A DNA stretch of 64,000 bases from a bacterium (GTDB taxonomy: Bacteria; JACRDZ01; JAQUKH01), in assembly GCA_028719205.1 (NCBI GenBank), contig JAQUKH010000005.1, positions 1 through 64,000 on the forward strand, given 5' to 3'. The notes under the pieces are model-generated. The model was not told where the DNA came from and made no database searches. It saw only the letters and a list, made by a program, of their open reading frames with translations. Positions 27,369 to 41,790 of the stretch are shown here, in pieces. Numbering within the stretch: the stretch's first letter is position 1; each line of letters begins with the position of its first letter. Both the position numbers and the translations under genes were made by a program.

Positions 27369-28634
27369 ATGACTTTAAGAGAAAAAGCTATTAATAAAAT
27401 AATTACACAGGAAATGATAAAACTTTCTAAGATCGAAAAAAGAAATCCTGAGGAATTGCGCAAAAAGATCGCTGAAGGCAAAATCGCGGTTCCGCGTAAC
27501 CGGAAACGAAAAACAAAGATCTGCGGTATCGGCGAAGGGTTACGCACAAAGGTTAATGCCAACATAGGCACTTCACCGCTTGCTTCTAACCTGAAGATCG
27601 AAATAAAAAAACTGGAAACAGCGATTCGGGCCGGGACCGATACGATCATGGACCTAAGCTGCGGCGGGAATGTGGATAAAATAAGAAAAGAATTAATTTC
27701 AAGATGCCCGATCCCGTTTGGAACAGTTCCAATCTATCAGGCCGCACAGGAAACTACAAAAAAAGGGAAAAAAATTACTGAGATACCCGTAGAATTATTT
27801 TTTGAAGTAATAGAAAAACAGGCTGAAGACGGCGTGGATTTTATGACCATACACTGCGGTGTAACCCGGCACGTCCTTGAAAAACTGGCTTCGAAAAAAC
27901 GGATCACGGGAATCGTAAGCCGCGGCGGCGCGATCATGGCTTCCTGGATGAAACAAAATAAAAAAGAAAATCCATTTTTTGAAAATTATGACCGTTTATT
28001 AAAGATCACAAAAAAATATGACCTTACCTTGAGCCTGGGCGACGGATTAAGGCCCGGATGCCTCGCCGACGCTACTGATCCCGGACAGATCGAGGAATTA
28101 AAAACACTGGGCAAACTCTGCAAGAAAGCTTGGAGTGAAGGAATTCAGGTCATTATCGAAGGGCCCGGACATGTTCCTATCGATCAGATCAAAAAAAATG
28201 TGGAATTAGAAAAGAAATATACTAACGGCGCCCCTTTTTATTGCCTAGGGCCTTTAGTCACGGATATCGCTCCCGGTTATGACCATATTACCTCGGCCAT
28301 CGGAGCCGCGCTTGCCGCGAGTTATGGCGTGGATTTTATTTGTTATGTTACTCCCGCTGAACATTTAAAATTACCATCGATAAATGATGTAAAAGAAGGC
28401 GTGATTGCGAGCCGTATCGCGGGACACGCCGCTGATATCGCGAAACGTGTTCCGTTCGCTTTAGAATGGGATAAAAAAATGGCGCGCGCGCGAAAAAACC
28501 TTTCATGGAAAGACCAAATGAGGCTGGCTATCGATCCGGAAAAGGCTAAATTACTTCATTCGTTATCTCAGGGAACAAATGGGGAAGAATGCTCAATGTG
28601 CGGAGAATTTTGCGCGATGAAGGTAAAAATATAA
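27369..28634 (+). CDS. thiC: Phosphomethylpyrimidine synthase
   Basis: Radical SAM enzyme that rearranges aminoimidazole ribotide to hydroxymethylpyrimidine phosphate. The 421-residue protein has the C-terminal cluster motif CX2CX4C in CSMCGEFCAM, plus MDLSCGGN, TIHCGVT, SRGGAIMASWM, SLGDGLRPGCL, EGPGHVPI and GPLVTDIAPGYDHI. It is the short (archaeal/anaerobe-type) form without the long N-terminal domain of E. coli ThiC. It ends the thiG-thiE-thiDN-thiC operon. Confidence 0.97.
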   Translation: MTLREKAINKIITQEMIKLSKIEKRNPEELRKKIAEGKIAVPRNRKRKTKICGIGEGLRTKVNANIGTSPLASNLKIEIKKLETAIRAGTDTIMDLSCGGNVDKIRKELISRCPIPFGTVPIYQAAQETTKKGKKITEIPVELFFEVIEKQAEDGVDFMTIHCGVTRHVLEKLASKKRITGIVSRGGAIMASWMKQNKKENPFFENYDRLLKITKKYDLTLSLGDGLRPGCLADATDPGQIEELKTLGKLCKKAWSEGIQVIIEGPGHVPIDQIKKNVELEKKYTNGAPFYCLGPLVTDIAPGYDHITSAIGAALAASYGVDFICYVTPAEHLKLPSINDVKEGVIASRIAGHAADIAKRVPFALEWDKKMARARKNLSWKDQMRLAIDPEKAKLLHSLSQGTNGEECSMCGEFCAMKVKI

Positions 28635-28647
28635 AGTGATCCTGAAT

Positions 28648-29661
28648 TTATTCAGGCGTAACTGAAAGAAGATCAGGATAACACTCAAGGCCGGCCCGAG
28701 CGACAGTTTTAATTAAAATATCTTTTGGCTTGTAACGTTCTTTTCTATATATAACAAATTCCGCTTCGTCATTTTCAGGAGTACCGTCATGCAATGTTAC
28801 GGCATTAGCCCCTGCCATTAATCCTAAATATTGCCCGTCTTTAATAAGTAATTCCAAAGAACTGGTGGAGGGAATAAGCATATTCGGGCACAGAATTCTC
28901 AATATCGCCATGGAATTAAGCGCCGTCAAAATATCGCCCGGCGGGCAATTCGCGTAATTTGACATATCATTTGGAATAAATACAGAAGTACTGCCCATAG
29001 GAATATCCAATTTTTTCATCAGCAAAAGGTCATCGGCCATGCTATCCGTTGTCTGTCCCGGCAAACCCGTGATATTACCGGAACTTACCTGGAAACCAAA
29101 CTTTTTCAACATTTCTATATGAGCTAATCTATTTTCAAAACTATCAGAAGGTTTTATCTTTTTATAAAGTTTTGGGTCCGATGTTTCAAATTTAAGCAAA
29201 TATCTTTCGACACCGGCCTCTTTCAACTTTTTGTATTTATCCGCGGACAGGTTCCCAAAACTGCAGATAAAAGTCAGATCCAAATATTTAGCCTTCACTT
29301 CTTTGAGTAATTTATACAGCCTTTGGAAGTAAATATCCGCAGATATCTCTCCCGCCTGGATCATTATCACTCTGCGCCCGTTGCAATAAAGTTTTTCAAT
29401 CTCTCTTAATAATTCACTGTCGCTTAAAATATACCTTTTTATACTCGAATATTTATTCATACCGCAATAATTACATGCCTGCTCGCATATATTTGAATAT
29501 TCAATAACGCTTCGGACTTCAACTTTTTTCCCAAAGACTTCATCCCTTATTTTTCGCGCGTATTCAAATAAACCTTCCTGCTCACCGCCGCGGAATAGCA
29601 AAGCTTTTACAATATTCGTTTTTTTATTAAGATCATTAAATATATTCTTTTCTGATCGCAT
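28648..29661 (-). CDS. HydE/BioB-family radical SAM protein
   Basis: A 337-residue radical SAM protein with CX3CX2C in ICEQACNYCGMNKY. The layout is that of HydE and biotin synthase: a GGE-like segment in QAGEI, LKFETSDPKLYKKI, TGLPGQTTDSMADDL, and the C-terminal LIPSTSSLELLIKDGQYLGLMAGAN. HydE helps build the [FeFe]-hydrogenase cofactor. The C-terminal TLHDGTPENDEAEF stretch departs from the HydE pattern I know, so a related function is possible. I chose the ATG at 29661 because AAGGA precedes it; an in-frame TTG at 29721 lacks a ribosome site. It is convergent with thiC, with 13 bases between the stops. Confidence 0.75.
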   Translation of the reverse strand: MRSEKNIFNDLNKKTNIVKALLFRGGEQEGLFEYARKIRDEVFGKKVEVRSVIEYSNICEQACNYCGMNKYSSIKRYILSDSELLREIEKLYCNGRRVIMIQAGEISADIYFQRLYKLLKEVKAKYLDLTFICSFGNLSADKYKKLKEAGVERYLLKFETSDPKLYKKIKPSDSFENRLAHIEMLKKFGFQVSSGNITGLPGQTTDSMADDLLLMKKLDIPMGSTSVFIPNDMSNYANCPPGDILTALNSMAILRILCPNMLIPSTSSLELLIKDGQYLGLMAGANAVTLHDGTPENDEAEFVIYRKERYKPKDILIKTVARAGLECYPDLLSVTPE

Positions 29662-29749
29662 TATGTCCTTGACTAAATTTCCGAATTTAAGTATATTCGA
29701 TCGGAATGTTTGATTATACAATAAATTTATATTAATTTATTTTTTTATT

Positions 29750-30646
29750 ATGATGCAATCTCATTTAATTTATGGAATGCTTGGGGGGCTAGCCGCTTTA
29801 GGTTCAGCCGTCGCGTGGGCCTTCGGTTCGATCTTATTCGAAAAACTCGGGAACGATGTTTCTCCGCTCGGCATGAACCTTGGGAAAGGAATAATAGGTA
29901 TTTTGTATCTTGGAATACTTCTTTTGCTGATCGGCATGGAACCGATAAACAACCGTGATTTTTTATTTCTTGCGCTAAGCGGCTTATTAGGAATTGCACT
30001 TGGAGACACCTTTTTTTTCAAAGCCTTAATGCATTTAGGCCCGCGCTTAACGATCCTCCTGGAAACTCTGGGCCCCGTACTCACGGTTATTATGGCAGTC
30101 CTTTTTTTACATGAAAGGCCGTCTTCTCTTGCATGGACGGGAAGCATATTTACGATCGCAGGAGTTACATGGGTACTTTTTGAATCCGCTCCTATGGAAA
30201 AACTAAAAGAAAACTGGATATCCGGAGTCAAATACGCGCTGTTATCTTCTTTCTGCATGTCACTGGGAATAATTTTCGCAAAAATAGGCGTATCATCAAC
30301 TTCCGCGCTGCAAGGTACATTAATCCGGTTTTTGTTCAGTGTTATCGGCCTTACGCTCTGGGGAACAGCAACCAGAGAAATCAAGAACTGGCTTCTGCCT
30401 TTTAAAAATATCCGGTCGTTAAAACTGCTTCTTCTTACGGTTTTCATCGCGGTTTTCGGAGGTTTCTGGCTTTTTCTTGTCGCCCTTAAATATATTGATG
30501 CCTCTATCGCCACGATACTTAATTCAACCACCCCGTTATTTATCCTTCCGATGGTTGTATTTATATCAAAAGAAAAAATATCTCCCAGGGCGATCATAGG
30601 AGCAGTTATCGCAATAGCGGGGATCGGATTAATATTTGTCGGATAG
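29750..30646 (+). CDS. EamA/DMT-family permease
   Basis: A 298-residue membrane protein with about ten hydrophobic helices in two homologous halves (EamA repeats at about 8-145 and 158-298). Typical motifs include ALGSAVAWAFGSILFEKLG, LLETLGPVLTVIMAVLFLHE and ATILNSTTPLFILPMVV. This family exports or imports metabolites; the substrate cannot be predicted. The first ATG has no clear ribosome site, so the start may be a few codons downstream. It is convergent with the HemN-like gene (6 bases apart). Confidence 0.9.
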   Translation: MMQSHLIYGMLGGLAALGSAVAWAFGSILFEKLGNDVSPLGMNLGKGIIGILYLGILLLLIGMEPINNRDFLFLALSGLLGIALGDTFFFKALMHLGPRLTILLETLGPVLTVIMAVLFLHERPSSLAWTGSIFTIAGVTWVLFESAPMEKLKENWISGVKYALLSSFCMSLGIIFAKIGVSSTSALQGTLIRFLFSVIGLTLWGTATREIKNWLLPFKNIRSLKLLLLTVFIAVFGGFWLFLVALKYIDASIATILNSTTPLFILPMVVFISKEKISPRAIIGAVIAIAGIGLIFVG

Positions 30647-30652
30647 GATCAA

Positions 30653-32074
30653 TTAAGGCTGAAAATCGTCATACGGATTTAATTTGCCTTGCGCGTATGC
30701 CGTTCTTGCAAATGGCATATAGTCAGGATGGTGAAACTGGTGGCATATTTCGTCCGCAAAAAGGATCCCAAGCGGGGTAAGACCAAGCATTTTATCGTTT
30801 TCATAAAGTAAATTGAATTCTTTTAATTTTTCTATCTTCTTCCTGAAAATTGTATCCAATGACACTCCGGTTATTCTCTGGTAATATTTCTTGTTAACTT
30901 CCCGGTTTTTTAAAGGTAATATAAGCGCCCAACGCAATTGGGCATCCCTGTTTCTTACCAGCCCCCTGTCAACGGGCAGTTTACCCTGGTTTATCAAATA
31001 ATAATATTTATCAAAATACTGGGTATTCAGGCCGAATCTGTCTCTCAGGCTGCTGAACGCGGTCAGCCCAAAACCTATCTCATCAAAAAGGTTGCAGCAC
31101 TGGTTATTCGCATAGTGGGAAAAATCATCTTGTGTTTTACTGAAAACACGCCTCAAATTTTCATTATACCCGTTTTGAGATAAAAGTAAGATCGCAATTT
31201 CTTTCATCATAATTGCCCGTTTGAGCCCAAAATATTCCTTTCTCTCTTTAACGGATTTTTTCAAGATCGATCCCATATGATCCCCATATGGAATAATTTT
31301 GAGGCGATATAACTGGATCTCATCCGCACCAAGGGAAACAGCTTTTTCCACCGTCTCGATCCAGGCTTCAATTGTCTGTCCGGGATACCCATAAATAAAT
31401 TCTATATTAACCTTAAATCCCATTTTTTTTGTAATATCGATAGCTTCAATTGCTTCTTTCACGGTATGCGGACGGTTCATCTTTTTTAGTATTTCATCAT
31501 CAAGTGACTGGATCCCTATAGTTAACCGGTCCACACCAAATGATTTTAATATTTTAAGCCTCTCCCCTCCTTCCTTCCCGAGAAGCGTTAAAGGATCTAC
31601 GTCATAAGAAAATTGAGTGCATGAGTTCAAATCCACCCTACTTGAAAATGAACGCAGAAATTTTTCAAGCCTTGCAGGAATCAGGTAGGTGGGAGTCCCG
31701 CCGCCTATAAGGATTGAACGGGGTTTGATCGTTTTTAAACCCAGGCGGTTCATATAAATATCCATTTCCTTCTCCAGCATATTCAGGTAATGGTCTTTTT
31801 CCTCATCAGGGGCCCCGATCTTAACCGGATAGTGGCAAAAAACACAATATTTCATACAAAAAGGAATATGAACATAAATGTCAAACAAATTACCGGATGG
31901 GTTGGCATATCCTTTAAACAAGGTTTTTTCATCAATGGGCGGATACATATTGATCGGAGGGTAATGGACAGAAGGGAAAAATTGCCCGTCGAGACAAATA
32001 AGCCCTTCTTTCTGCAATTTATTTAAATCTTTTATTCGTTCTTCCGCGTCTTTAAGCAGCTTTGCCTTTATCAT
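30653..32074 (-). CDS. HemN-like radical SAM protein
   Basis: A 473-residue protein. After a 64-residue N-terminal extension comes the core: YVHIPFCMKYCVFCHYPVK (CX3CX2C), the SAM-binding GGGTPTYL, and LTIGIQSLDDEILKKMNRPH. A HemN_C-like winged-helix region follows (about 375-460; LTPLGILFADEI). The HemN-like group includes heme chaperone HemW, class C methyltransferases that act on peptides and other substrates, and heme-degrading ChuW/HutW. True HemN features for coproporphyrinogen cannot be confirmed. The gene is preceded, on the same strand, by a terminator-like hairpin and a 21-residue peptide gene with an excellent ribosome site. That arrangement suggests a peptide-modifying enzyme, though this is inference. 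Confidence 0.8.
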   Translation of the reverse strand: MIKAKLLKDAEERIKDLNKLQKEGLICLDGQFFPSVHYPPINMYPPIDEKTLFKGYANPSGNLFDIYVHIPFCMKYCVFCHYPVKIGAPDEEKDHYLNMLEKEMDIYMNRLGLKTIKPRSILIGGGTPTYLIPARLEKFLRSFSSRVDLNSCTQFSYDVDPLTLLGKEGGERLKILKSFGVDRLTIGIQSLDDEILKKMNRPHTVKEAIEAIDITKKMGFKVNIEFIYGYPGQTIEAWIETVEKAVSLGADEIQLYRLKIIPYGDHMGSILKKSVKERKEYFGLKRAIMMKEIAILLLSQNGYNENLRRVFSKTQDDFSHYANNQCCNLFDEIGFGLTAFSSLRDRFGLNTQYFDKYYYLINQGKLPVDRGLVRNRDAQLRWALILPLKNREVNKKYYQRITGVSLDTIFRKKIEKLKEFNLLYENDKMLGLTPLGILFADEICHQFHHPDYMPFARTAYAQGKLNPYDDFQP

Positions 32075-32108
32075 AATTCCTGCTATGTAATAACTATTTC
32101 ACAAAAAA

Positions 32109-32196
32109 AACCCCCATATCAAACACGACAAAACTTTTGTCCATCTTTAAAACTAAGCATAATGAAAACGGACATAATCTGTTTGATATGGAGGTT
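32109..32196 (-). terminator. Terminator/attenuator between the 21-residue peptide gene and the HemN-like gene
   Basis: Minus strand: arms AACCTCCATATCAAACA (32196-32180) and TGTTTGATATGGGGGTT (32125-32109) pair over 17 positions with one G-U pair and are followed by a run of T. The long loop contains a second, smaller stem (TGTCC/GGACA). Placed 25 bases after the peptide stop and about 35 before the radical SAM start, it would let the peptide be made in excess over the enzyme. Confidence 0.75.
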
Positions 32197-32220
32197 ACTT
32201 ATAACTGCCTGGCATAAAAA

Positions 32221-32286
32221 TTAACAAGGATGAACATAAGAACTAGCTACAATTTTTGGAGCAAAATACTTAATTTTATTTTTCAT
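32221..32286 (-). CDS. 21-residue peptide, candidate RiPP precursor
   Basis: A very short frame starting at an ATG with GGAAGGAG six bases upstream, coding for 21 residues. The sequence is MKNKIKYFAPKIVASSYVHP followed by a final Cys. The Lys-rich N-terminal part (KNKIKYFAPKI) would be a leader and the C-terminal ASSYVHPC a core with Ser, Tyr, His, Pro and terminal Cys. It resembles short PqqA-type precursors only in size and in an aromatic-Pro centre. It is followed by a terminator hairpin and then a HemN-like radical SAM gene on the same strand. A -10 box (TATAAT) lies 38 bases upstream. A chance short frame cannot be excluded, but the ribosome site and context argue for translation. Confidence 0.6.
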   Translation of the reverse strand: MKNKIKYFAPKIVASSYVHPC

Positions 32287-32323
32287 TTACTACTCCTTCC
32301 TTTTAAAAAACTCTTTCTAAATG

Positions 32324-32329
32324 ATTATA
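32324..32329 (-). promoter_or_regulatory. -10 box upstream of the 21-residue peptide gene
   Basis: Perfect TATAAT on the minus strand (32329-32324) giving a predicted start near 32317 and a 30-base leader containing the strong ribosome site. No good -35 is present at 17 bases, so the promoter may need an activator or another sigma factor. Confidence 0.45.
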
Positions 32330-32466
32330 CTTAATTACAAGAAAAAAGTTTCCTTCTTATTTGTTTTATTTATCGTCACATTTGTCAATTATTTTATACA
32401 TAAAAAAGCATTCGGTTTATTATTATAATATGTTTTATTACCTTTAGTCAAGGAAAAATATGGGAC

Positions 32467-34131
32467 CTAATAGGGATATGGAATCAGTATACGCTCAGCA
32501 TCTTTTCCCTTATCCTTAGCTTTGTGTTTTTCAATATAGCTGTCCCACTCCAGCAATTTTTCCTTCAGTTTTGCTGTTATATCAGGTTTTTCAGAAGCTA
32601 TGTTTTTTTGCTCAAATGGATCATTTTTTAAATCATAAAGTTCAATCTCATCTATAGCTATTTTCTTCCTGGAAATAAAACTCCACCATGAAACCCTTTC
32701 CAGAAGAGATTTATCTTTGCGCAATATTAATTTCCAATCATTGGTTCTTATCGCAATATCATTGGGAGGATATTGCGGGTCATACTTTTCAAAATTTTGT
32801 CTAAGTATATTCCCATATTCCAGTTTTTTTTCATTTCCAAGGGATTGATCCATTTTCCACCTGAAATCCGTTCCCTTAAAGAACATATATTCCCAAAATG
32901 GAGTCCTTGTAGAATAAACAAATTCATTCAACCCGGCGCTTTTATCATTTTCAATCAAAGGCATTAAATTAATGCCCTGGGCCTCATGATTAATGGGAAT
33001 ATCCAGATAATCAAGCAGTGTAGGCATAATATCAAGACCCTGGGCCTGTGCAAGAATTCTCTTCCCTTTAAATTTACTTCCGGGAAATTTAATAATTAAG
33101 GCATTCTTTACTTCGGTATCATATATATCATAATGAGTAAAATATCCATGTTCACCTAAATCTTCACCATGAATGGAATGCAGAACAATAATAGTATTAT
33201 CGCTCAGGCCCAAACTCTCAACCAGAGAAAATAACCTTCCAATAAATTCATCGGTATAATATATACCCGCGTCATATCTTCCGATTATATGTTGAATATC
33301 TTTTTCCGATAAATTGTAACTGTCGGAAGAATCAAAATAATAAACATTTTTATAAATATGTGATATCAAATTGTAACTGATACTGCCATCTTTAGGCCAA
33401 ATATCCTGTTCATTGCCAAAACGGTAAAAAAACGGAGTGTAATCCGGAGCATCAAATTTGTTTTTATAAGAGGGAGGTATATCTCTGGCATACGGCCAAT
33501 GGACTGTCCCTATTGGTATCCATAAGAAAAATTTCTTATCTTTATTATCCTTAAGCCATTGCAGTGCTCCTTCGGGATTTTCTCTTTCACCTGCAAATTT
33601 TATTTTTCCCCCGGGAATTCCTGCTCTAGTGGTATCCGCAGGCTCAAAAACGTCAAACGATTTCCCAAATATTTTTTTAGATTGTATGACAAGCCCGTCT
33701 TTTCTTGTTACTTCAACAATAAATTCAGGACAACCTAAAAAAGCCGCATTTGTATAACCATAGTATTTCAAAATAGAAGGAAGTGTTTTTTCTGAAACAT
33801 TCGCCGATAATGCTTCATATGAAGTCATCCCGTTCACGCGGGGCTCCTGTGATGTAAAAATACTCATTTGGCTTATAGGTGTAAAAGCGGCTTGAGTTAT
33901 AAAATTTTCAAACAATACCGATTTTTCAGCAAAATCATCGATATTTTTACTTGTTTCCCTCTTATAACCATAACAGCCCAGATGGTCGTTCCTGAGAGTG
34001 TCTATGGAAATAAATATAATATTTGTATTTTCGTATTTTGGGCTGACCGCTTTTTCATTCTTTTCCCCATTAACAGACACACCGTTTAATAAAAAAAGAA
34101 TTGTTAAAAACAGAAATACGATCTTTTTCAT
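32467..34131 (-). CDS. Sulfatase-fold protein (alkaline phosphatase superfamily), altered active site
   Basis: A 554-residue secreted protein (signal peptide about 1-22) of the sulfatase/alkaline phosphatase fold, beginning TNIIFISIDTLRNDHLGCYGY. At the nucleophile position the Cys/Ser of sulfatases is Thr (T84 in AAFTPISQMS), so no formylglycine can form. The C-terminal metal motif, normally SDHGE, reads HSIHGEDLGEHG (Ile320 in place of Asp). The N-terminal Asp (D44) is kept. It overlaps the upstream paralogue by 4 bases (ATGA). It may be a phosphodiester or phosphonate hydrolase with weakened metal binding, or a non-catalytic binding protein. Substrate unknown. Confidence 0.85.
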   Translation of the reverse strand: MKKIVFLFLTILFLLNGVSVNGEKNEKAVSPKYENTNIIFISIDTLRNDHLGCYGYKRETSKNIDDFAEKSVLFENFITQAAFTPISQMSIFTSQEPRVNGMTSYEALSANVSEKTLPSILKYYGYTNAAFLGCPEFIVEVTRKDGLVIQSKKIFGKSFDVFEPADTTRAGIPGGKIKFAGERENPEGALQWLKDNKDKKFFLWIPIGTVHWPYARDIPPSYKNKFDAPDYTPFFYRFGNEQDIWPKDGSISYNLISHIYKNVYYFDSSDSYNLSEKDIQHIIGRYDAGIYYTDEFIGRLFSLVESLGLSDNTIIVLHSIHGEDLGEHGYFTHYDIYDTEVKNALIIKFPGSKFKGKRILAQAQGLDIMPTLLDYLDIPINHEAQGINLMPLIENDKSAGLNEFVYSTRTPFWEYMFFKGTDFRWKMDQSLGNEKKLEYGNILRQNFEKYDPQYPPNDIAIRTNDWKLILRKDKSLLERVSWWSFISRKKIAIDEIELYDLKNDPFEQKNIASEKPDITAKLKEKLLEWDSYIEKHKAKDKGKDAERILIPYPY

Positions 34132-36119
34132 TTTTTGTAATCCTCCCCTATAGACTTAAGGTGTTTAAATAGTTTTTGCTCAAGTTCATAGGCGATCCTT
34201 TTTTCTTTTTCAGCCAGATTATTCAACTCTTTCGGATCATCTCTTAAATTATACAACTCTCTTTCCCGTGTGTCTATTGAATGTATATATTTCCATCCAT
34301 CGCTTGTCCTTAACGAACGTTTAAATGTATACGATAAATAATCGGTTTCAGAAAAAGCATCTAATTTTAAATCCTCTCCATTCATTAAAGGAACCAGGGT
34401 AACACCCTGCATTTGATCTTTTATGATTTCATTATATTTAATATCCAGCATATCCAGCACAGTCGGCATAATATCGAGTGTTCTTACCTGGTTTTCTATT
34501 ACACTCCCTTTCTTGTCCGGAACTTTGATTATCAAAGGGACTCGAATTAATTCTTCATAGAGGCTGAATCCATGGTCAAATCTTTTATGTTCGTAAAACT
34601 CATTTCCTGAACCGGATGAAACAACTATTATTGTTTTATTCCCCAATCCCATTTTATCAAATTCATCAAAAAAAGTACCTAATTTTTTATCCGCTTCATA
34701 TATTTTCGCGTCATACCACGATTCCCAAAACTTTATATCTTCATCTGCCATATTTAAAAATCCCTCATTTACGCTTAAATCCCTTAATTTCCAATACTCA
34801 TCCACTGTACCTTTATATTTTCCCTTGTAGTTTGGATCAGCAAATTGGTTCTTGAAATCAGCGGGAAGTTGATAACGTCCGTGTACATCATAGCCCTGAA
34901 TAAATAAGAAAAAATTTTCATCCCTGTTTTTATTGATCCATTCTAAGGCCATAGGTAAAACGAGATCAAACCCCGCAAAAGTAATCTTATCATAATAAAT
35001 ATCAAACCCTAAATTATATCCGAAATTCCCGGCTACTCCGGCATCTCCGGTAAAACCGGCAGTTGAGTAACCGTTTTTTTTCAAAACTTGCGCCAGAGTA
35101 ACAGCGGAAGGAGAAAGTTCAGACAGATTAGAAAAAACCTTCTCTTTATCCGTATATATGCTATATTTATTAAGGATCTTATGTTGTGAAGGATATAAAG
35201 ATGTAAACCATGACATAAACGAAGGCAGCGTCCAACTGGAAGGGCTGACAGCATTTTTAAACAAAAAAGCGTTTTTAGAAAATTTATCGAGATTGGGCGT
35301 AGTATCTCTAAAATAACCGGAGGCTCCTGTATGATTTACCCCCAGAGGTTCAAATCCAATTATAATCAAATTATAATTTTTATTCGCATTCCTGTCTTTT
35401 TTAATGTCAGATGATTTTTCTTGTACGGTTTCAACTTTTGAACGGCGGACAATCGACCCGAAGATGCTTAAAACATCTTTTTTATCAAATTTCTCTTTAG
35501 GAATAAATAGCTCGATCTGATACAATTTTTTTTCTTTTTCGTTATAAATGAATATTAAAGCTCCGCGGTATGCTATAAGTTCCTCCGCACCGACTCCATA
35601 TGTAAACCTGGATGTACTCGACAAAATGAGGAAAGCAGTCTTTACCCCCTCTATTTCAATATATTCAACTTTGGGTTTAAACTCATCCGGGTATTCTATG
35701 GTATTTGAAATCATCCCCGGATAGGGGGAAGGTGTTTGATAATAGAGTGAATTTATTATATACTTTTTTTCTTCGATGCGCCTTTCCGCGGAATTGTTAT
35801 CAATATTATTTATAACTTCAATTTTAATTACACTCCCGTTTTTTTCCGCGGAAACCGTAAAAAAAGTATTTTCCCATTCATACATTGATATATTTTTTTG
35901 AATGACAAAGTCATCCGCTTTGCTTATTGATATCCCAAGCTGATCAAAAACTTCTCCTAAACTTGAGTTAAACGGTCCCGATTTATCGGGATCGCTTTTA
36001 CTCATTGTTATCCTCGGAGGGGATAATTTCTTTGTATCACAGTCTGTCCTGCTTAAGAAAGTATGTATAATTAAAAAAAATACGAACAATGGAATAGCAG
36101 TTCTATTTTTTTTCTTCAT
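34128..36119 (-). CDS. Sulfatase-fold protein with N-terminal extra domain, altered active site
   Basis: A 663-residue protein with an N-terminal hydrophobic signal, an unassigned domain of about 200 residues (40-240), then a sulfatase-like domain (about 248-655). Several catalytic positions differ from the family: the first metal Asp motif reads IIGFEPLGVNH (Glu in place of Asp), the nucleophile position is Thr in SSWTLPS, and the SDHG motif reads SSGSGNEF. With at least three metal ligands changed it is unlikely to be a normal hydrolase. Translation is coupled both upstream (17-base overlap with the phosphodiesterase gene) and downstream (4-base overlap). The N-terminal domain was not recognised. 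Confidence 0.8.
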   Translation of the reverse strand: MKKKNRTAIPLFVFFLIIHTFLSRTDCDTKKLSPPRITMSKSDPDKSGPFNSSLGEVFDQLGISISKADDFVIQKNISMYEWENTFFTVSAEKNGSVIKIEVINNIDNNSAERRIEEKKYIINSLYYQTPSPYPGMISNTIEYPDEFKPKVEYIEIEGVKTAFLILSSTSRFTYGVGAEELIAYRGALIFIYNEKEKKLYQIELFIPKEKFDKKDVLSIFGSIVRRSKVETVQEKSSDIKKDRNANKNYNLIIIGFEPLGVNHTGASGYFRDTTPNLDKFSKNAFLFKNAVSPSSWTLPSFMSWFTSLYPSQHKILNKYSIYTDKEKVFSNLSELSPSAVTLAQVLKKNGYSTAGFTGDAGVAGNFGYNLGFDIYYDKITFAGFDLVLPMALEWINKNRDENFFLFIQGYDVHGRYQLPADFKNQFADPNYKGKYKGTVDEYWKLRDLSVNEGFLNMADEDIKFWESWYDAKIYEADKKLGTFFDEFDKMGLGNKTIIVVSSGSGNEFYEHKRFDHGFSLYEELIRVPLIIKVPDKKGSVIENQVRTLDIMPTVLDMLDIKYNEIIKDQMQGVTLVPLMNGEDLKLDAFSETDYLSYTFKRSLRTSDGWKYIHSIDTRERELYNLRDDPKELNNLAEKEKRIAYELEQKLFKHLKSIGEDYKK

Positions 36120-38142
36120 ATATTTCTTCTAATTTTTGCCCTTCGACAAAATCAGGTATTTTCATACCCATAAGTTGCATGATAGTAGGATACTGGTCCA
36201 CCATTTTGATCGGGTTTTTTAGTTCATAGTTCTTTTTAACTCCCGGACCCATTATTACAAAAGGCGTCCACACAGCTTTTGTGTCATTTGGTAAGATCCC
36301 CTGTTTATAACCGGTTATTAAAGGAGTTTCAAAAACAGTTAAGCCTGAATTTACCTCTTCATTCCAGCCAAAACCTTCTTTATTTGCAACTGTCAAATCT
36401 CCAACCCTATCTGTAGGAAGATCATAAAATTTTCTGGCGTCTTCCCATTTTACGACAGCAGCCACGGGCTTTTTGCCATCTTCATCTTCGAGATTATTGA
36501 GCATCTTTATAACTCTATTTCTTAACTCTTCATATTCCGCGCCGCTTGCCCTTGTCCATTTCCCGGCCAAACCTTTGGGGCTGATATAAATATTATACAT
36601 ATTTAAATATATGACTTTGGAATTTTCCCAATCAATTACAGGTTCTCCTGTTTTTTCATTTATAGTAAATTTTAAAAGGCCTTCTTTAGCAAACAGGCTG
36701 TTAAGATGCACCAGCCTGTTGAGAGGCGACATACCGTGATCCGAGCTTAAAACAATTAATGTATTTTCGTCAGCCTTTTTCAAATACTCTCCTAAAATAT
36801 CATCAAGCCTCTTATACATATTTAAAACTTCGTTCCAAAGATCCTTTCTCTGGTCGTTATCAACCATTTCATACCGTTTACTCGCCGGATCTATTGAACC
36901 AAGCCACCATCGGCTGCTGAGCATCTGGTTTGGCGTATAAATATCCTGGATAAATACATCCGGCCGGTATTTTTCCAGAATAAACTTTGCCGCTTTTGTA
37001 TGCCATTCAAAAGACATATCCGCTTCTTCCTTAAATGTTTCCTTATCTTCAGGATAATATATAAGCTGGGCGGGGAAATTGTCGGCAAAATCAACCATAG
37101 GCCCTGCATTATTTACAAGTTCATCAGAAACTTCAGGCGGTTTTGTTATATATTTATTCAAATTATTGTAAAAATATCTTACCCTGAAAAAAACCTTATC
37201 ATCCAACTCGTCTTTCTTTAATTTAATTATTTTTATCTTAAAATCAGAATTGACATCAAGCTCTCCCCATTTGAGCTGGATAGGATTCCACTGGCTCCAT
37301 TGCCCCTGGGCAAGATCAGCAATCACATTTTTTTTATCCAGAGAAAAAGCGATCCTGTTGTAATCTACTTTATTGTCATCCACACTGTCATATATATAAG
37401 CAAAAATATCCGTCCCCCAGCCTTTCATCTTTGCCTCTAACGGCTGGCTGAACGAGGCCGGTATATTATTCCAGCCTTCAGCAGGTTTAGCATCAACGTA
37501 CATAGTCAGTTCCGGCCCGAAATAAAATAATCTGACGGAACGGCCTTGTTTTTTTCGCTCCGATAGGTCTCTTTCTGACTGGAAATTCAGCGCGTGAAAA
37601 TCAGCTCCCCAACCTCCCCATCTTCCCCTTATGGTAATACCTTCATCAAGCTCGGGTGGAGTAGACCCGGGAATAGAAAGTAAAACAACTTTCTTGCCGC
37701 TTTTTTCCAGATTTATCCAGATAGGAGGAACCTTTTTCGCCGTTGAACTGAATCCCCCAATCGCCACTTTGTCTAACGGACGCCCTTCTATGTGCATCGG
37801 GCCGTCAGCAACACCATGCGTCTTAGGATAACTTCCTGTAAGAAGAGTGGCAAAATTAATCGGAGTATGCGAGGGGAACACAGGGATACAATACCCGTAA
37901 GAACCATTATCCATCATTTTCTTAATATTGGGAAGCTTTCCCTCTCTTGCCCATTCAAAAATTTTAAATAAGTCAGGCTCTGCCCTTACACCATCGGGAA
38001 TAAACCAATATAACTTTTGGGCCTTCGGAGAATCAGAGGTCGAATCTTCCGAAACGGCTATTACCCGTGGGGGGAAAAACTGAAACACCATAAAAAAACT
38101 TAAAAATAACATTTCTGTTATTATTCTGAAAATACTTTTCAT
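36103..38142 (-). CDS. Type I phosphodiesterase/nucleotide pyrophosphatase family protein
   Basis: A secreted protein of 679 residues from the ATG at 38142 (GGAGG 8 bases upstream; an in-frame ATG at 38157 is less likely). It keeps the family active site: WFIPDGVRAE (metal Asp), the Thr nucleophile in VFPSHTPINFATLLTGSYP, and VLSSDHGMSP near the C-terminus. The 250-470 region is an insertion relative to small NPP enzymes. Members cleave nucleotide or other phosphodiesters in the periplasm. It is the only member of this four-gene set with an unaltered site. It is followed by the two sulfatase-fold genes and preceded by the porin gene (gap of 16 bases). Confidence 0.88.
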   Translation of the reverse strand: MKSIFRIITEMLFLSFFMVFQFFPPRVIAVSEDSTSDSPKAQKLYWFIPDGVRAEPDLFKIFEWAREGKLPNIKKMMDNGSYGYCIPVFPSHTPINFATLLTGSYPKTHGVADGPMHIEGRPLDKVAIGGFSSTAKKVPPIWINLEKSGKKVVLLSIPGSTPPELDEGITIRGRWGGWGADFHALNFQSERDLSERKKQGRSVRLFYFGPELTMYVDAKPAEGWNNIPASFSQPLEAKMKGWGTDIFAYIYDSVDDNKVDYNRIAFSLDKKNVIADLAQGQWSQWNPIQLKWGELDVNSDFKIKIIKLKKDELDDKVFFRVRYFYNNLNKYITKPPEVSDELVNNAGPMVDFADNFPAQLIYYPEDKETFKEEADMSFEWHTKAAKFILEKYRPDVFIQDIYTPNQMLSSRWWLGSIDPASKRYEMVDNDQRKDLWNEVLNMYKRLDDILGEYLKKADENTLIVLSSDHGMSPLNRLVHLNSLFAKEGLLKFTINEKTGEPVIDWENSKVIYLNMYNIYISPKGLAGKWTRASGAEYEELRNRVIKMLNNLEDEDGKKPVAAVVKWEDARKFYDLPTDRVGDLTVANKEGFGWNEEVNSGLTVFETPLITGYKQGILPNDTKAVWTPFVIMGPGVKKNYELKNPIKMVDQYPTIMQLMGMKIPDFVEGQKLEEIYEEKK

Positions 38143-38158
38143 TACAATATCCTCCATC

Positions 38159-39178
38159 TTAGAATTGGCAAGTCACCTGACCTGTTAAGGCATTATTGCT
38201 GATTTCAGTCCCGCGCTCATTTTTAAGTTCATAATTAACCTGTAAAAATACTGATTTGTTAAAATACAGGTTAATACCATAAGTGTAGATATCCGTTTCA
38301 TCCCCGTCTATTCCCGTATCCGGGTCATAAGTATCGAATTTGATAATATTCTGAAATTTACCGGGTATAATAAAATAACCCGCTTGTACGTACCAGCCGT
38401 CTTTTTTCGTTACACTATCTTTACCTTTAAGATATTCCGCCTTTAACGAAACTGTATCTTTTACATAGCAAATTTCCGCGCCAATTCTATCGCGGGTATT
38501 TTTGCTTAACGTGGTATCCGTACTTAAAGTGTATTTTCCTGTATAATAAGAACCGCCTATTGATAAATTCTTTAATGGATGAAAAACCAGCCTTCCAGCT
38601 ATGTCTTTATGATTATTGGTATCGGGAGTGCTTATCCCTGAACCGTTAAAAACTCCTATGGCATAATCAAACAGGCCTCTTCCCTCAACCTGGATTCCAA
38701 CATCACGGACGCACTGGTTACCGATAACATCTTTGCTCCTTGATACCAAAGCCTCCACTACTTGCGAAAAATTGATAGTTTCCAGTTTCACGCTCGGGGT
38801 TAAATTTTCCTGGCTGATCGGAATTAAAAATTGGCCTACCTTTAACTTAAACTGTGAATTAAATTTATAACCAACCCACTGATCAAGAAGTTTAGCGGAA
38901 GAACCGCCAAAAATTGCGTGAAACTGATAATCAAAGCCTTCAATATCTCCTGTAATGACCAATCCTGCCAGCTTAATATCAAAGGAATCATTAATACTTT
39001 TATCCTGACGGTAACGTATGTGAGTATACCCGCTTAATTTAACAGGGTTGCCTGTAATTACATAAAACTTATCAGCAGTATCTTTTTTAACAACCGCGCT
39101 ATCCATACCAGGTTCTGCCGCAAAGGACAACGATACAACAACTAAAAAACAAACTGCTAACCAACTGAACATTTTCAT
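38159..39178 (-). CDS. OprO/OprP-type porin
   Basis: A 339-residue outer-membrane protein with a signal peptide (cleavage near AEPG, residue about 21). Alternating beta-strand segments of the phosphate-selective porin O/P family follow, e.g. GYTHIRYRQD, FHAIFGGSS, KLKVGQFLIPISQENLTPS, GRLVFHPLKNLSIGGSYY, and it ends in a terminal Phe (VTCQF), the outer-membrane sorting signal. Such porins pass phosphate or other anions. Its place amid phosphodiesterase and sulfatase-fold genes suggests uptake of the released anion. AGGAGAAGGC precedes the ATG. Confidence 0.9.
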   Translation of the reverse strand: MKMFSWLAVCFLVVVSLSFAAEPGMDSAVVKKDTADKFYVITGNPVKLSGYTHIRYRQDKSINDSFDIKLAGLVITGDIEGFDYQFHAIFGGSSAKLLDQWVGYKFNSQFKLKVGQFLIPISQENLTPSVKLETINFSQVVEALVSRSKDVIGNQCVRDVGIQVEGRGLFDYAIGVFNGSGISTPDTNNHKDIAGRLVFHPLKNLSIGGSYYTGKYTLSTDTTLSKNTRDRIGAEICYVKDTVSLKAEYLKGKDSVTKKDGWYVQAGYFIIPGKFQNIIKFDTYDPDTGIDGDETDIYTYGINLYFNKSVFLQVNYELKNERGTEISNNALTGQVTCQF

Positions 39179-39225
39179 TAAAGCCTTCTCCTTTTTTATT
39201 CTTTTTTAAAATTTGTTATAATATT

Positions 39226-40830
39226 TTACCAATAACCATGTTCTCTGGCATCCTTAATAATTTTCTCCGGGATTTCTTGAGTCGATGGACGGGCCGAGCT
39301 AAACTCTTTTGACCATTTAGCCCACTTTTCCATCTCTTTTTGTAAATTTTCTTTTATCACCGGATGTTTATCAGTAAGATTGATAAGCTCATCAGGGTCA
39401 TTTTTAATATCGTATAATTCGTAGGTCTCTTCATTTACTTGTTTATCTTTGTTTTTATCGGAACCCGAAAACTGAATCTCGTGGATCAGCTTCCATTTAT
39501 AATCTCTTATAGATTCATTTATACTCTGTAATATAGGCCGCGGCGGCGCCGATACGGCTGTTGTTGTGCTATCATGAAAAGGGCTATTCATGTTAAACTC
39601 TGAACCTGCATAGACATAATCATTAACGGAAATATTGCTCTTTATCAACGGAATTAAAGTCTTTCCCTGCATCCCCCCGGTAAAAGGAATATCCAATAAT
39701 TCCAATACCGTAGGCATAACATCAATTAACTGCGCCAGGCCATTTATTCTTTTACCTTCTCTCTGCGGTATCTTGATCATTAATGGAACATGGACGACGT
39801 CATCGTAGAGAGTGCCTCTTGCTATGCCGCCGCGGCCAAACCGGCCATGCAGAGCAAACATCTCTCCGTGTTCAGAAAAAATAATAATAATCGTCTTTTT
39901 AAGAACATTCTCATCGAGAGAACTTAAAAAATCGCCAACCTTAGAATCCACAGACAAAACCTCTTCATCATAGAGATCCCTCAGATAATCAATATCGTCC
40001 TGAGTCAAAATAACTGTCATTTTCTCGGGTTTGGGGATCGCCGGCTTTTGTATTCTTGCAGGTTGAGTCCCTGCAAAAGGGTCAGCTAATGATATATAAG
40101 AGGCAACATACTTATTATCAGAATTCTTAATGCCTATTAGGCTAAATCCGGAGTAAACGATGATATTTTTCCCTTTAGGATCGCTGAATATACCTTTAAA
40201 TTTTTCAGGAGGGGTAAAGGGAGGATGTGCATCATAACCATGAATAAATAAAAAGAATTTTTTATCCGAATTTCTGGAAAGCCAATCCCTGGCTTGAGTT
40301 AACGTTACGTCAAATCCCGTAAAATTAGGGTTATTGTCCGTTTCTTCAAATCCCAACATATGGCCAAATTCTTTATAATAGTCCAATCCACCGGTAAAAG
40401 CCGCTGTTTTATATCCGCTTTTTTTTAAAATATCCGGCAAGGTACTGATACTCTTATTAAGCAGGTCCGTCCTGTAACGCTGCATAACTTTATGGGTATA
40501 GGGATATAAGGACGTAAAAAGAGATGTTGCAACCGGTAGTGTCCACGAATCAGGGGAAAATGCATTATCGAAAACTGCCGCATTTTGTGACCATTTATCA
40601 AGATAAGGGGTCGTGTTCCTTTTATAACCGTAAAGGCTCATATGCTTTACGCCAACGTTGTTTATCGAAATCATGATAAGATTATAACCGCCATAGCGGC
40701 AGGATCCAATTTCTTCTTTTTCAATCCCTAAACTGATTGTCGTAACAACGAAGAAATTAGATAAAAAAACTACCATGAATATTTTTGACAAAACCGCCGT
40801 CTTTAAATTTCCCGTTATCAATAATTTCAT
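39226..40830 (-). CDS. Sulfatase-fold protein, altered active site
   Basis: A 534-residue sulfatase/alkaline-phosphatase-fold protein with an N-terminal membrane or signal segment (about 12-34). The first metal motif reads LIMISINNVGVKH (N57 in place of Asp), the nucleophile position is Thr (T97 in PDSWTLPVATS), and the later SDHG motif reads FSEHGEMFALHG (Glu for Asp). The global fold motifs (FLFIHGYDAHPPFTPP, PLMIKIPQ, DVMPTVLELLDIP) are preserved. It is the first of the hydrolase-like set, 33 bases downstream of the epimerase. Function is uncertain: metal use may be changed rather than lost, because Glu can replace Asp as a ligand. Confidence 0.85.
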   Translation of the reverse strand: MKLLITGNLKTAVLSKIFMVVFLSNFFVVTTISLGIEKEEIGSCRYGGYNLIMISINNVGVKHMSLYGYKRNTTPYLDKWSQNAAVFDNAFSPDSWTLPVATSLFTSLYPYTHKVMQRYRTDLLNKSISTLPDILKKSGYKTAAFTGGLDYYKEFGHMLGFEETDNNPNFTGFDVTLTQARDWLSRNSDKKFFLFIHGYDAHPPFTPPEKFKGIFSDPKGKNIIVYSGFSLIGIKNSDNKYVASYISLADPFAGTQPARIQKPAIPKPEKMTVILTQDDIDYLRDLYDEEVLSVDSKVGDFLSSLDENVLKKTIIIIFSEHGEMFALHGRFGRGGIARGTLYDDVVHVPLMIKIPQREGKRINGLAQLIDVMPTVLELLDIPFTGGMQGKTLIPLIKSNISVNDYVYAGSEFNMNSPFHDSTTTAVSAPPRPILQSINESIRDYKWKLIHEIQFSGSDKNKDKQVNEETYELYDIKNDPDELINLTDKHPVIKENLQKEMEKWAKWSKEFSSARPSTQEIPEKIIKDAREHGYW

Positions 40831-40863: not shown

Positions 40864-41790
40864 TTAAGACCGGAAATTTCTGAACCATTCTGTTGTTTTA
40901 CTAAGCCCCTCTTCAAAAGAAACTTTTGGATACCATCCTAATTCCTTAGCCGCAAGGCTTCCATCAATAAATATTTTATTTATTTCCCCCAGCCTGGCAG
41001 GGGCATATTCAGGTTTTTCGGAAAATTTAATTATCTTTTGGAGAGTAGAATATATCTGGTTTACGGAAATACCTATCCCCCAACCCAGATTACAAAATTT
41101 TTTATCTCCTTTTTTTAAAGCAAGAATATTCGCGTCAACTACATCGCTGACATAAACATAATCCCTTAACTGCTCGCCGTCTCCATAAATAACCGGTATC
41201 TCTCCGCTCAGCATCTTCTTAATGAAAATCGCGTTTACTCCGGCCTCACCATGAGGATTTTGCCTGGGGCCAAATACATTCGGGTAACGCAGAACGGTAA
41301 AATTCAAATTATAAAGATAATTATATAAAAAAAGGTAATGTTCAACGGTATGTTTCGAAACACCATAATGGCAGACAGGATTGATAGGATGTTTTTCGTT
41401 TACAGGAAAATATTCAGGTTCTCCATATATAGCCCCGCCGGTAGAAATATAGATAATCTTTTTTACTTTATGTTTTCTGCAGTTTTCAAGGATATTAATT
41501 GAACCTAAGATATTTACATCCGCGTCATACTCGGGATTCTCGATGGATTTACGGACATCCATCTGCGCGGCATGATGGTCAACATAATCCGGTTTTTCTT
41601 TCGCGAAAATTTCATCTATTTTTTTGTCACGGATATCGATCTCGTAGAACCTGGCCTTTTTATTGATATTCTCTTTAAAACCGGTTGTCAAATTATCAAT
41701 AATTACTACTTCATGCCCTTCCGCAATCAAACGATCCACCAGGTTAGAAGCGATAAATCCGGCACCGCCGGTGACGAGGATTTTGGACAT
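40864..41790 (-). CDS. NAD-dependent sugar epimerase/dehydratase (UDP-glucose 4-epimerase type)
   Basis: A 308-residue extended SDR protein with the NAD motif [23 protein letters not shown], the catalytic STGGAIYGE and [11 protein letters not shown] (YxxxK), and [18 protein letters not shown]. It belongs to the GalE/WbpP-like epimerases for nucleotide sugars. The ATG is 22 bases after the encoded CCA of tRNA-Glu with no terminator in between and no ribosome site, so message start or processing by the tRNA enzymes may set its 5' end. Exact substrate cannot be given. Confidence 0.9.

Follow-up and report, generated by a model that had tools for sequence, protein, structure and literature searches.

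A conserved 21-residue peptide ending in His-Pro-Cys is a probable unlinked precursor of the GeoRSP radical SAM/SPASM system

Introduction

The window analysed here, a stretch of 64,000 nucleotides of a bacterial contig (JAQUKH010000005.1, positions 1 to 64,000), contains a very short gene with a ribosome-binding site, followed by a hairpin and then by a gene for a HemN-like radical SAM enzyme. All four features were present as given in a preliminary description of the locus, which took the peptide to be the precursor and the adjacent enzyme to be its modifying partner. The question raised by the locus is which enzyme, if any, acts on the peptide. Comparison with related genomes points to a probable answer away from the site, in the GeoRSP radical SAM/SPASM system, which is encoded on another contig of the same genome.

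Results

The peptide gene and its signals

The minus-strand open reading frame (ORF) at 32286-32221 encodes the 21-residue product MKNKIKYFAPKIVASSYVHPC and is accompanied by a Shine-Dalgarno (SD) sequence, a likely -10 element and a predicted intrinsic terminator (Table 1). The terminator hairpin was missed by a simple terminator scan because its loop is long and branched; the fold of the 246-nt leader is more stable than those of its shuffled counterparts (z = -2.42), with one of 200 shuffles folding equally well. NCBIfam and Pfam scans of the peptides returned no match at E values up to 10, with HMMER filters that are weak on queries as short as these, and an Rfam search of 30500-34500 gave one match, far under its gathering score and outside the peptide feature. 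By single-sequence search, the window peptide is the sole match in its own genome (G000, 92.7% complete).

Table 1. Coordinates of the features discussed in the text (window positions, except for the last row)
Feature	Position	Strand	Remarks
21-codon peptide gene	32221-32286	minus	YxxPxxVxxSxVHPC family; candidate GeoRSP radical SAM/SPASM precursor
Shine-Dalgarno sequence AAGGAG	32298-32293	minus	6 bases 5' of the ATG of the peptide gene
TATAAT, likely -10 of the peptide gene	32329-32324	minus	predicted promoter, from sequence
Intrinsic terminator of the peptide gene	~32197-32103	minus	long stem, branched loop, T8; predicted by folding
HemN-like radical SAM gene	30653-32074	minus	Radical_SAM 89.6 bits, HemN_C 33.5 bits (Pfam)
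EamA transporter gene	29750-30646	plus	
thiC	27369-28634		window flank
Epimerase gene	40864-41790		window flank
GeoRSP radical SAM/SPASM gene of the window genome	G000:C8:41193-42167		TIGR04303, 408 bits vs cut-off 400

A family of short peptides ending in His-Pro-Cys

A search of 290 relatives with the window peptide gave matches at E values up to 1 in 15 genomes, nine of which hold a true member (G000, G001, G002, G003, G110, G141, G150, G278 and G288, with two each in G001 and G288). The matches in G115, G116, G135, G162, G179 and G253, which do not have HPC followed by a stop, were rejected as chance. A second sample, 12 genomes from the phylum of G110 (two of which also belong to the first sample), was searched with a profile of 11 peptides and yielded members in G110, G290, G291, G293, G295 (four copies), G296 (two) and G299. 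Four further rows of this search were set aside as chance because they are short partial matches within long frames: both of those from G246, the weaker one from G293 and the weakest one from G296. The G296 row was checked in the sequence, and the remaining three were assessed from the match table. The only plasmid match, at E 9, was a chance one, and phages had none. All peptides were collected by similarity to that of the window, and a negative genome is one with no close relatives of it.

The resulting family comprises 21 loci in 15 genomes, with up to four copies per genome. Its members have 17-21 residues and the consensus MKxxYxxPxxVxxSxVHPC, and an SD-like sequence is found at all 21 loci. 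Tyr, Pro, Ser, His, Pro and Cys are invariant in an 11-row alignment, the rows of which were picked from matches ending in HPC-stop, so that the invariance of HPC is partly by construction; the regular expression that defined the 21 loci demanded both HPC and YxxP, and only the Ser at -6 is independently invariant. Members of the predicted family come from several families and phyla, and all keep HPC and the SD sequence. As the preliminary description had anticipated for a genuine precursor, the amino-acid sequence of the short frame is conserved at these loci, and the C-terminal His-Pro-Cys is retained. A 21-codon ORF of the congeneric genome G001 is 81% identical to the window peptide over 21 residues.

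The family tracks the GeoRSP maturase

The GeoRSP radical SAM/SPASM family, TIGR04303, was found in 10 of the 290 genomes, and the peptide is present in nine of these 10 versus none of the 280 maturase-negative genomes. Fisher's test gives 2.8e-16 for this first sample with the genomes treated as independent and phylogeny uncorrected; four of the first 10 positives come from the window's phylum, and two pairs share a family. Each of the nine peptide genomes has one TIGR04303 match, in contrast to G179, the source of one chance hit, which has none. Nine of the 12 genomes from the phylum of G110 have TIGR04303, with the peptide in seven of the nine versus none of the three maturase-negative genomes (Fisher 0.045). 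The two remaining maturase-positive genomes of that phylum, in which no peptide was detected, are G246 (a single contig, 100% complete) and G298 (78% complete); the surroundings of the G246 cassette were searched for a divergent peptide, and they contain none. Altogether, 17 genomes, the window's included, have a TIGR04303 relative, and 15 of the 17 also have the peptide. These computations show the predicted peptide to be a conserved coding gene that tracks GeoRSP.

Three genomes join the two physically. Immediately 5' of the peptide gene in G002, G141 and G278 are genes for a PqqD-like protein and the TIGR04303 enzyme, with stop/start overlap in two of these genomes. TIGR04303 (cut-off 400) is the best family for all three enzymes, at 410 bits in G278, about 386 (385.6) in G141 and about 359 (358.2) in G002, the latter two being under the curated cut-off. 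The peptide gene is part of the GeoRSP cassette in three of the 15 peptide-bearing genomes and lies outside it in 12. A copy is on the cassette contig, 21-23 kb off, in G110, G290 and G296, and in the remaining genomes the gene is far from the cassette or on another contig.

The cassette of the window's genome has PqqD-like and SPASM-domain neighbours whose best matches are TIGR04302/TIGR04304, under the curated cut-offs (61.3 vs 100 for the PqqD-like protein and 100.9 vs 300 for the SPASM protein). The 12-kb stretch round this cassette has no HPC peptide, and the window peptide is on another contig. Because none was found near the cassette and the single-sequence search of the genome gave no other copy, the window peptide is the best, and perhaps the only, precursor candidate in its genome.

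The peptide could depend on GeoRSP without being its substrate, for example as a signal or regulator that stays unmodified and has coevolved with the system, and the mostly unlinked positions and the multiple copies, up to four in a genome, would suit such a role. PqqD-like domains, by family, bind precursor peptides. The presence of such a domain, the invariant C-terminal Cys and the position of the peptide gene directly behind the maturase in three genomes argue for a substrate, and we regard the non-substrate role as unlikely.

The site in the window and in a congeneric genome

In G001 the gene order is serA-purA-epimerase-peptide-thiC, with thiC downstream of the peptide gene on the opposite strand (purA, serA, thiC, epimerase and porin are names assigned by eye from protein sequences). 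The window shares these flanks, and further genes lie to either side of its peptide gene: a BioB/EamA/HemN block on one side and, on the other, genes for sulfatase-like, phosphodiesterase-like and porin-like proteins. The 8-kb G001 stretch contains no counterpart of any of them. The signals of the peptide gene are retained in G001, where the aligned -10 is TATATT, inside a conserved stretch, and the SD sequence is AAGGAGG, conserved with respect to the AAGGAG of the window. Both terminator arms and the T run are also conserved, with no radical SAM gene behind them, and no HemN-like gene was found in G001 (98% complete) at E values up to 1e-40. Most simply, the transcription unit of the peptide would be the older occupant of the site and the terminator its own, since G001 keeps both peptide and terminator without the HemN-like gene. 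The hairpin had earlier been read as a partial terminator, or attenuator, between precursor and enzyme, and the G001 arrangement speaks against that.

The stretch at 32467-40830 of the window has three sulfatase-like genes, one phosphodiesterase-like gene and one porin-like gene, the first four belonging to the sulfatase/alkaline-phosphatase superfamily. Sulfatases related to those of the window also sit near the HemN-like gene at two other loci, L016 and L019.

A short ORF followed by a terminator, with Tyr, His, Pro and Cys codons near the ORF end, is also what one would see if translation of a regulatory leader peptide controlled the hairpin and, through it, the downstream gene. However, the downstream gene varies (the opposite-strand thiC in G001, other genes elsewhere), and the family follows GeoRSP and not any downstream gene. 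Moreover, five of the nine codons that differ between the window and G001 are synonymous, and the C-terminal half is almost unaltered. A leader peptide is thus very improbable.

Orthologues of the adjacent HemN-like gene

The best NCBIfam match of the HemN-like protein is the STM4012 family, at 175 bits versus a cut-off of 380, and because this score is far under the cut-off, the predicted protein fits no named subfamily. A contig scan gave a set of 20 orthologous HemN-like loci, 54-70% identical to the window's gene, with one at 44% (best segments). The motif CxxxCxFCHYP is present in all 19 proteins examined; the 20th locus, L029, is cut off. A peptide of the VHPC family was found at none of the 20 loci. 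Likewise, no upstream SD-led ORF of the window type was seen at the 19 of 20 loci examined, and no PC-ending ORF of that type at the orthologue loci. HPC-stop, looked for in all frames of all 20, gave no family member; the single instance, in L020, lacks YxxP and has no start codon within range. At L014, L015 and L016 there is no room for a peptide gene, because the methyltransferase gene upstream overlaps the match or stops no more than about 20 bp short of it. A peptide match in L018 (E 0.12) sits within a methyltransferase gene and was rejected as chance. TIGR04303 is absent, at E values up to 1e-60, from five HemN-orthologue genomes (those of L015, L016, L019, L021 and L028).

The recurrent partners of the HemN-like gene are a BioB/HydE-like radical SAM gene (16 of 20 loci), an EamA transporter gene (15 of 20) and, by clustering, a class I methyltransferase gene (18 of 20). 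EamA recurs at HemN-like loci that do not have the peptide, and the suggestion that the window's transporter exports the peptide finds no support. No such methyltransferase is beside the window's genes; the closest relative that the genome encodes lies on a different contig. An LTXXQ/Spy-like protein occurs at 10 of the 20 loci, and several of the class I methyltransferases have, by eye, a signal-peptide-like start. Window positions 28648-32074 and loci L014-L033 represent a recurrent gene set, matching no named system, in bins labelled cyanobacteria, Omnitrophota, Verrucomicrobiota, Desulfuromonadales, Methanothrix and others.

Position gives the adjacent HemN-like enzyme, with the hairpin as an attenuator between the two genes, some claim to the peptide: the genes are on the same strand, separated by 146 bp, and passages of PMC5682303 describe class C HemN homologues that methylate RiPPs. 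However, with no family peptide at any of the 20 orthologue loci, with peptide and terminator but not the enzyme in G001, and with five HemN-orthologue genomes devoid of the GeoRSP protein, we give this pairing hardly any credence. The best reading is that the HemN-like gene would be a mere physical neighbour, outside the peptide system. Thus, the association with a radical SAM peptide-modifying system made in the preliminary description holds, whereas its choice of the adjacent gene as the enzyme does not, the family's short frame being missing from the very orthologue loci proposed for comparison. As for a chance ORF, which the shortness of the frame and its lack of a family-model match might suggest, conservation of HPC and the SD sequence over several families and phyla refutes it almost beyond doubt.

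Neighbours of the cassettes and of the peptide genes

At 17 cassette loci of unequal length, clustering (with clusters named from their representatives) identified PqqD-like proteins at 14, YedE-type proteins at nine, cysteine-desulfurase-like proteins at nine and phosphonate-binding-type proteins at six. YedE-type and cysteine-desulfurase-like genes lie beside GeoRSP at L075, L076, L058, L100 and L104 and in other cassettes; YedE is proposed as a selenium transporter in a passage of PMC5322559. GeoRSP may be connected with the handling of selenium or sulfur. Beta-helix proteins are found beside cassettes and also beside some unlinked peptides.

Unlinked peptide genes at two loci, L050:1-3642 and L051:3-2987, lie about 40-55 bp behind genes for large CxxCH proteins; the large protein ahead of the peptide has 21 and 16 CxxCH motifs in G001 (second copy) and G003. 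At L053, L080, L083, L084, L102, L105 and L108 the peptide gene is flanked by two genes that recur together, one for a membrane protein and the other for a protein that is probably secreted; this site is shared by seven genomes of one family, a conserved location unlike that in the window.

Together, the neighbours of cassettes and peptides hint at an extracytoplasmic redox or selenium/sulfur role. One could go further and picture GeoRSP as a trans-acting maturation system that turns scattered, multi-copy HPC peptides of only 17-21 residues into a peptide-derived cofactor, or into a metal, selenium or sulfur ligand, for surface redox proteins. The hints are that YedE-type, cysteine-desulfurase-like and phosphonate/selenate-type binding proteins recur at the cassettes and that some peptide genes adjoin genes for multihaem or beta-helix proteins; we offer this only as speculation, and rather doubt it.

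Discussion

The 21-residue peptide is, in our view, quite likely an unlinked precursor, that is, a substrate, of the GeoRSP radical SAM/SPASM system, and would be modified in trans. The peptide gene would form a transcription unit by itself, with a promoter and a terminator of its own. Its translated product may be bound by the PqqD-like protein of GeoRSP, which is a small peptide-recognition domain, and modified by the radical SAM/SPASM enzyme from the other contig, with the companion SPASM-domain protein assisting. We infer that the chemistry would fall on part of the invariant set (Tyr, Pro, Ser, His, Pro and Cys), for which the simplest bond would be a cross-link made either to Tyr or to the Cys at the C-terminus. 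The downstream HemN-like/EamA/BioB-like block would come into the picture only through its location at the site in this genome.

Searches by family names of NCBIfam and of the literature (open-access texts only) returned no GeoRSP substrate, and one may have been proposed elsewhere. The literature search for GeoRSP itself gave one unrelated use of the letters in ecology, that for "geopeptide" gave nothing, and that for VHPC gave only neuroscience abbreviations among the matches listed. If the assignment is correct, a named maturase system gains a concrete substrate family, and its chemistry becomes testable by co-expression, for which the three genomes with adjacent peptide and enzyme are helpful. 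It would also mean that for scattered peptides such as these, neighbourhood-based RiPP mining assigns the wrong enzyme, as the preliminary description reasonably did.

Several known systems invite comparison. The class C radical SAM methylases NosN and TbtI resemble the HemN-like neighbour in the window, but differ in that the window's gene has no peptide partner across 20 orthologue loci. PQQ biosynthesis (PqqA/PqqD/PqqE) is similar in its very short precursor, PqqD-like chaperone and SPASM radical SAM enzyme. The GeoRSP enzyme is also a weak match to PqqE, though far under the cut-off (128 bits vs 381), and the peptide family, in which the invariant residues are Tyr, Pro, Ser and the C-terminal His-Pro-Cys, lacks the Glu/Tyr pair that defines PqqA. 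The precursor of mycofactocin differs from the family at its C-terminus. The mycofactocin system (MftA/MftB/MftC) is similar in that its precursor is short and in the use of phylogenetic profiling against a radical SAM maturase (PMC3023750), but its genes are clustered, whereas the peptides described here are mostly scattered. For bacteriocin systems, PMC3023750 places precursors near their maturases usually, though not always. The GeoRSP system itself (TIGR04302, TIGR04303 and TIGR04304) came with no precursor model in NCBIfam scans of seven peptides, and most peptide genes found here lie outside its cassette; nevertheless, 15 of the 17 maturase genomes carry the peptide, three of them with peptide and maturase genes side by side.
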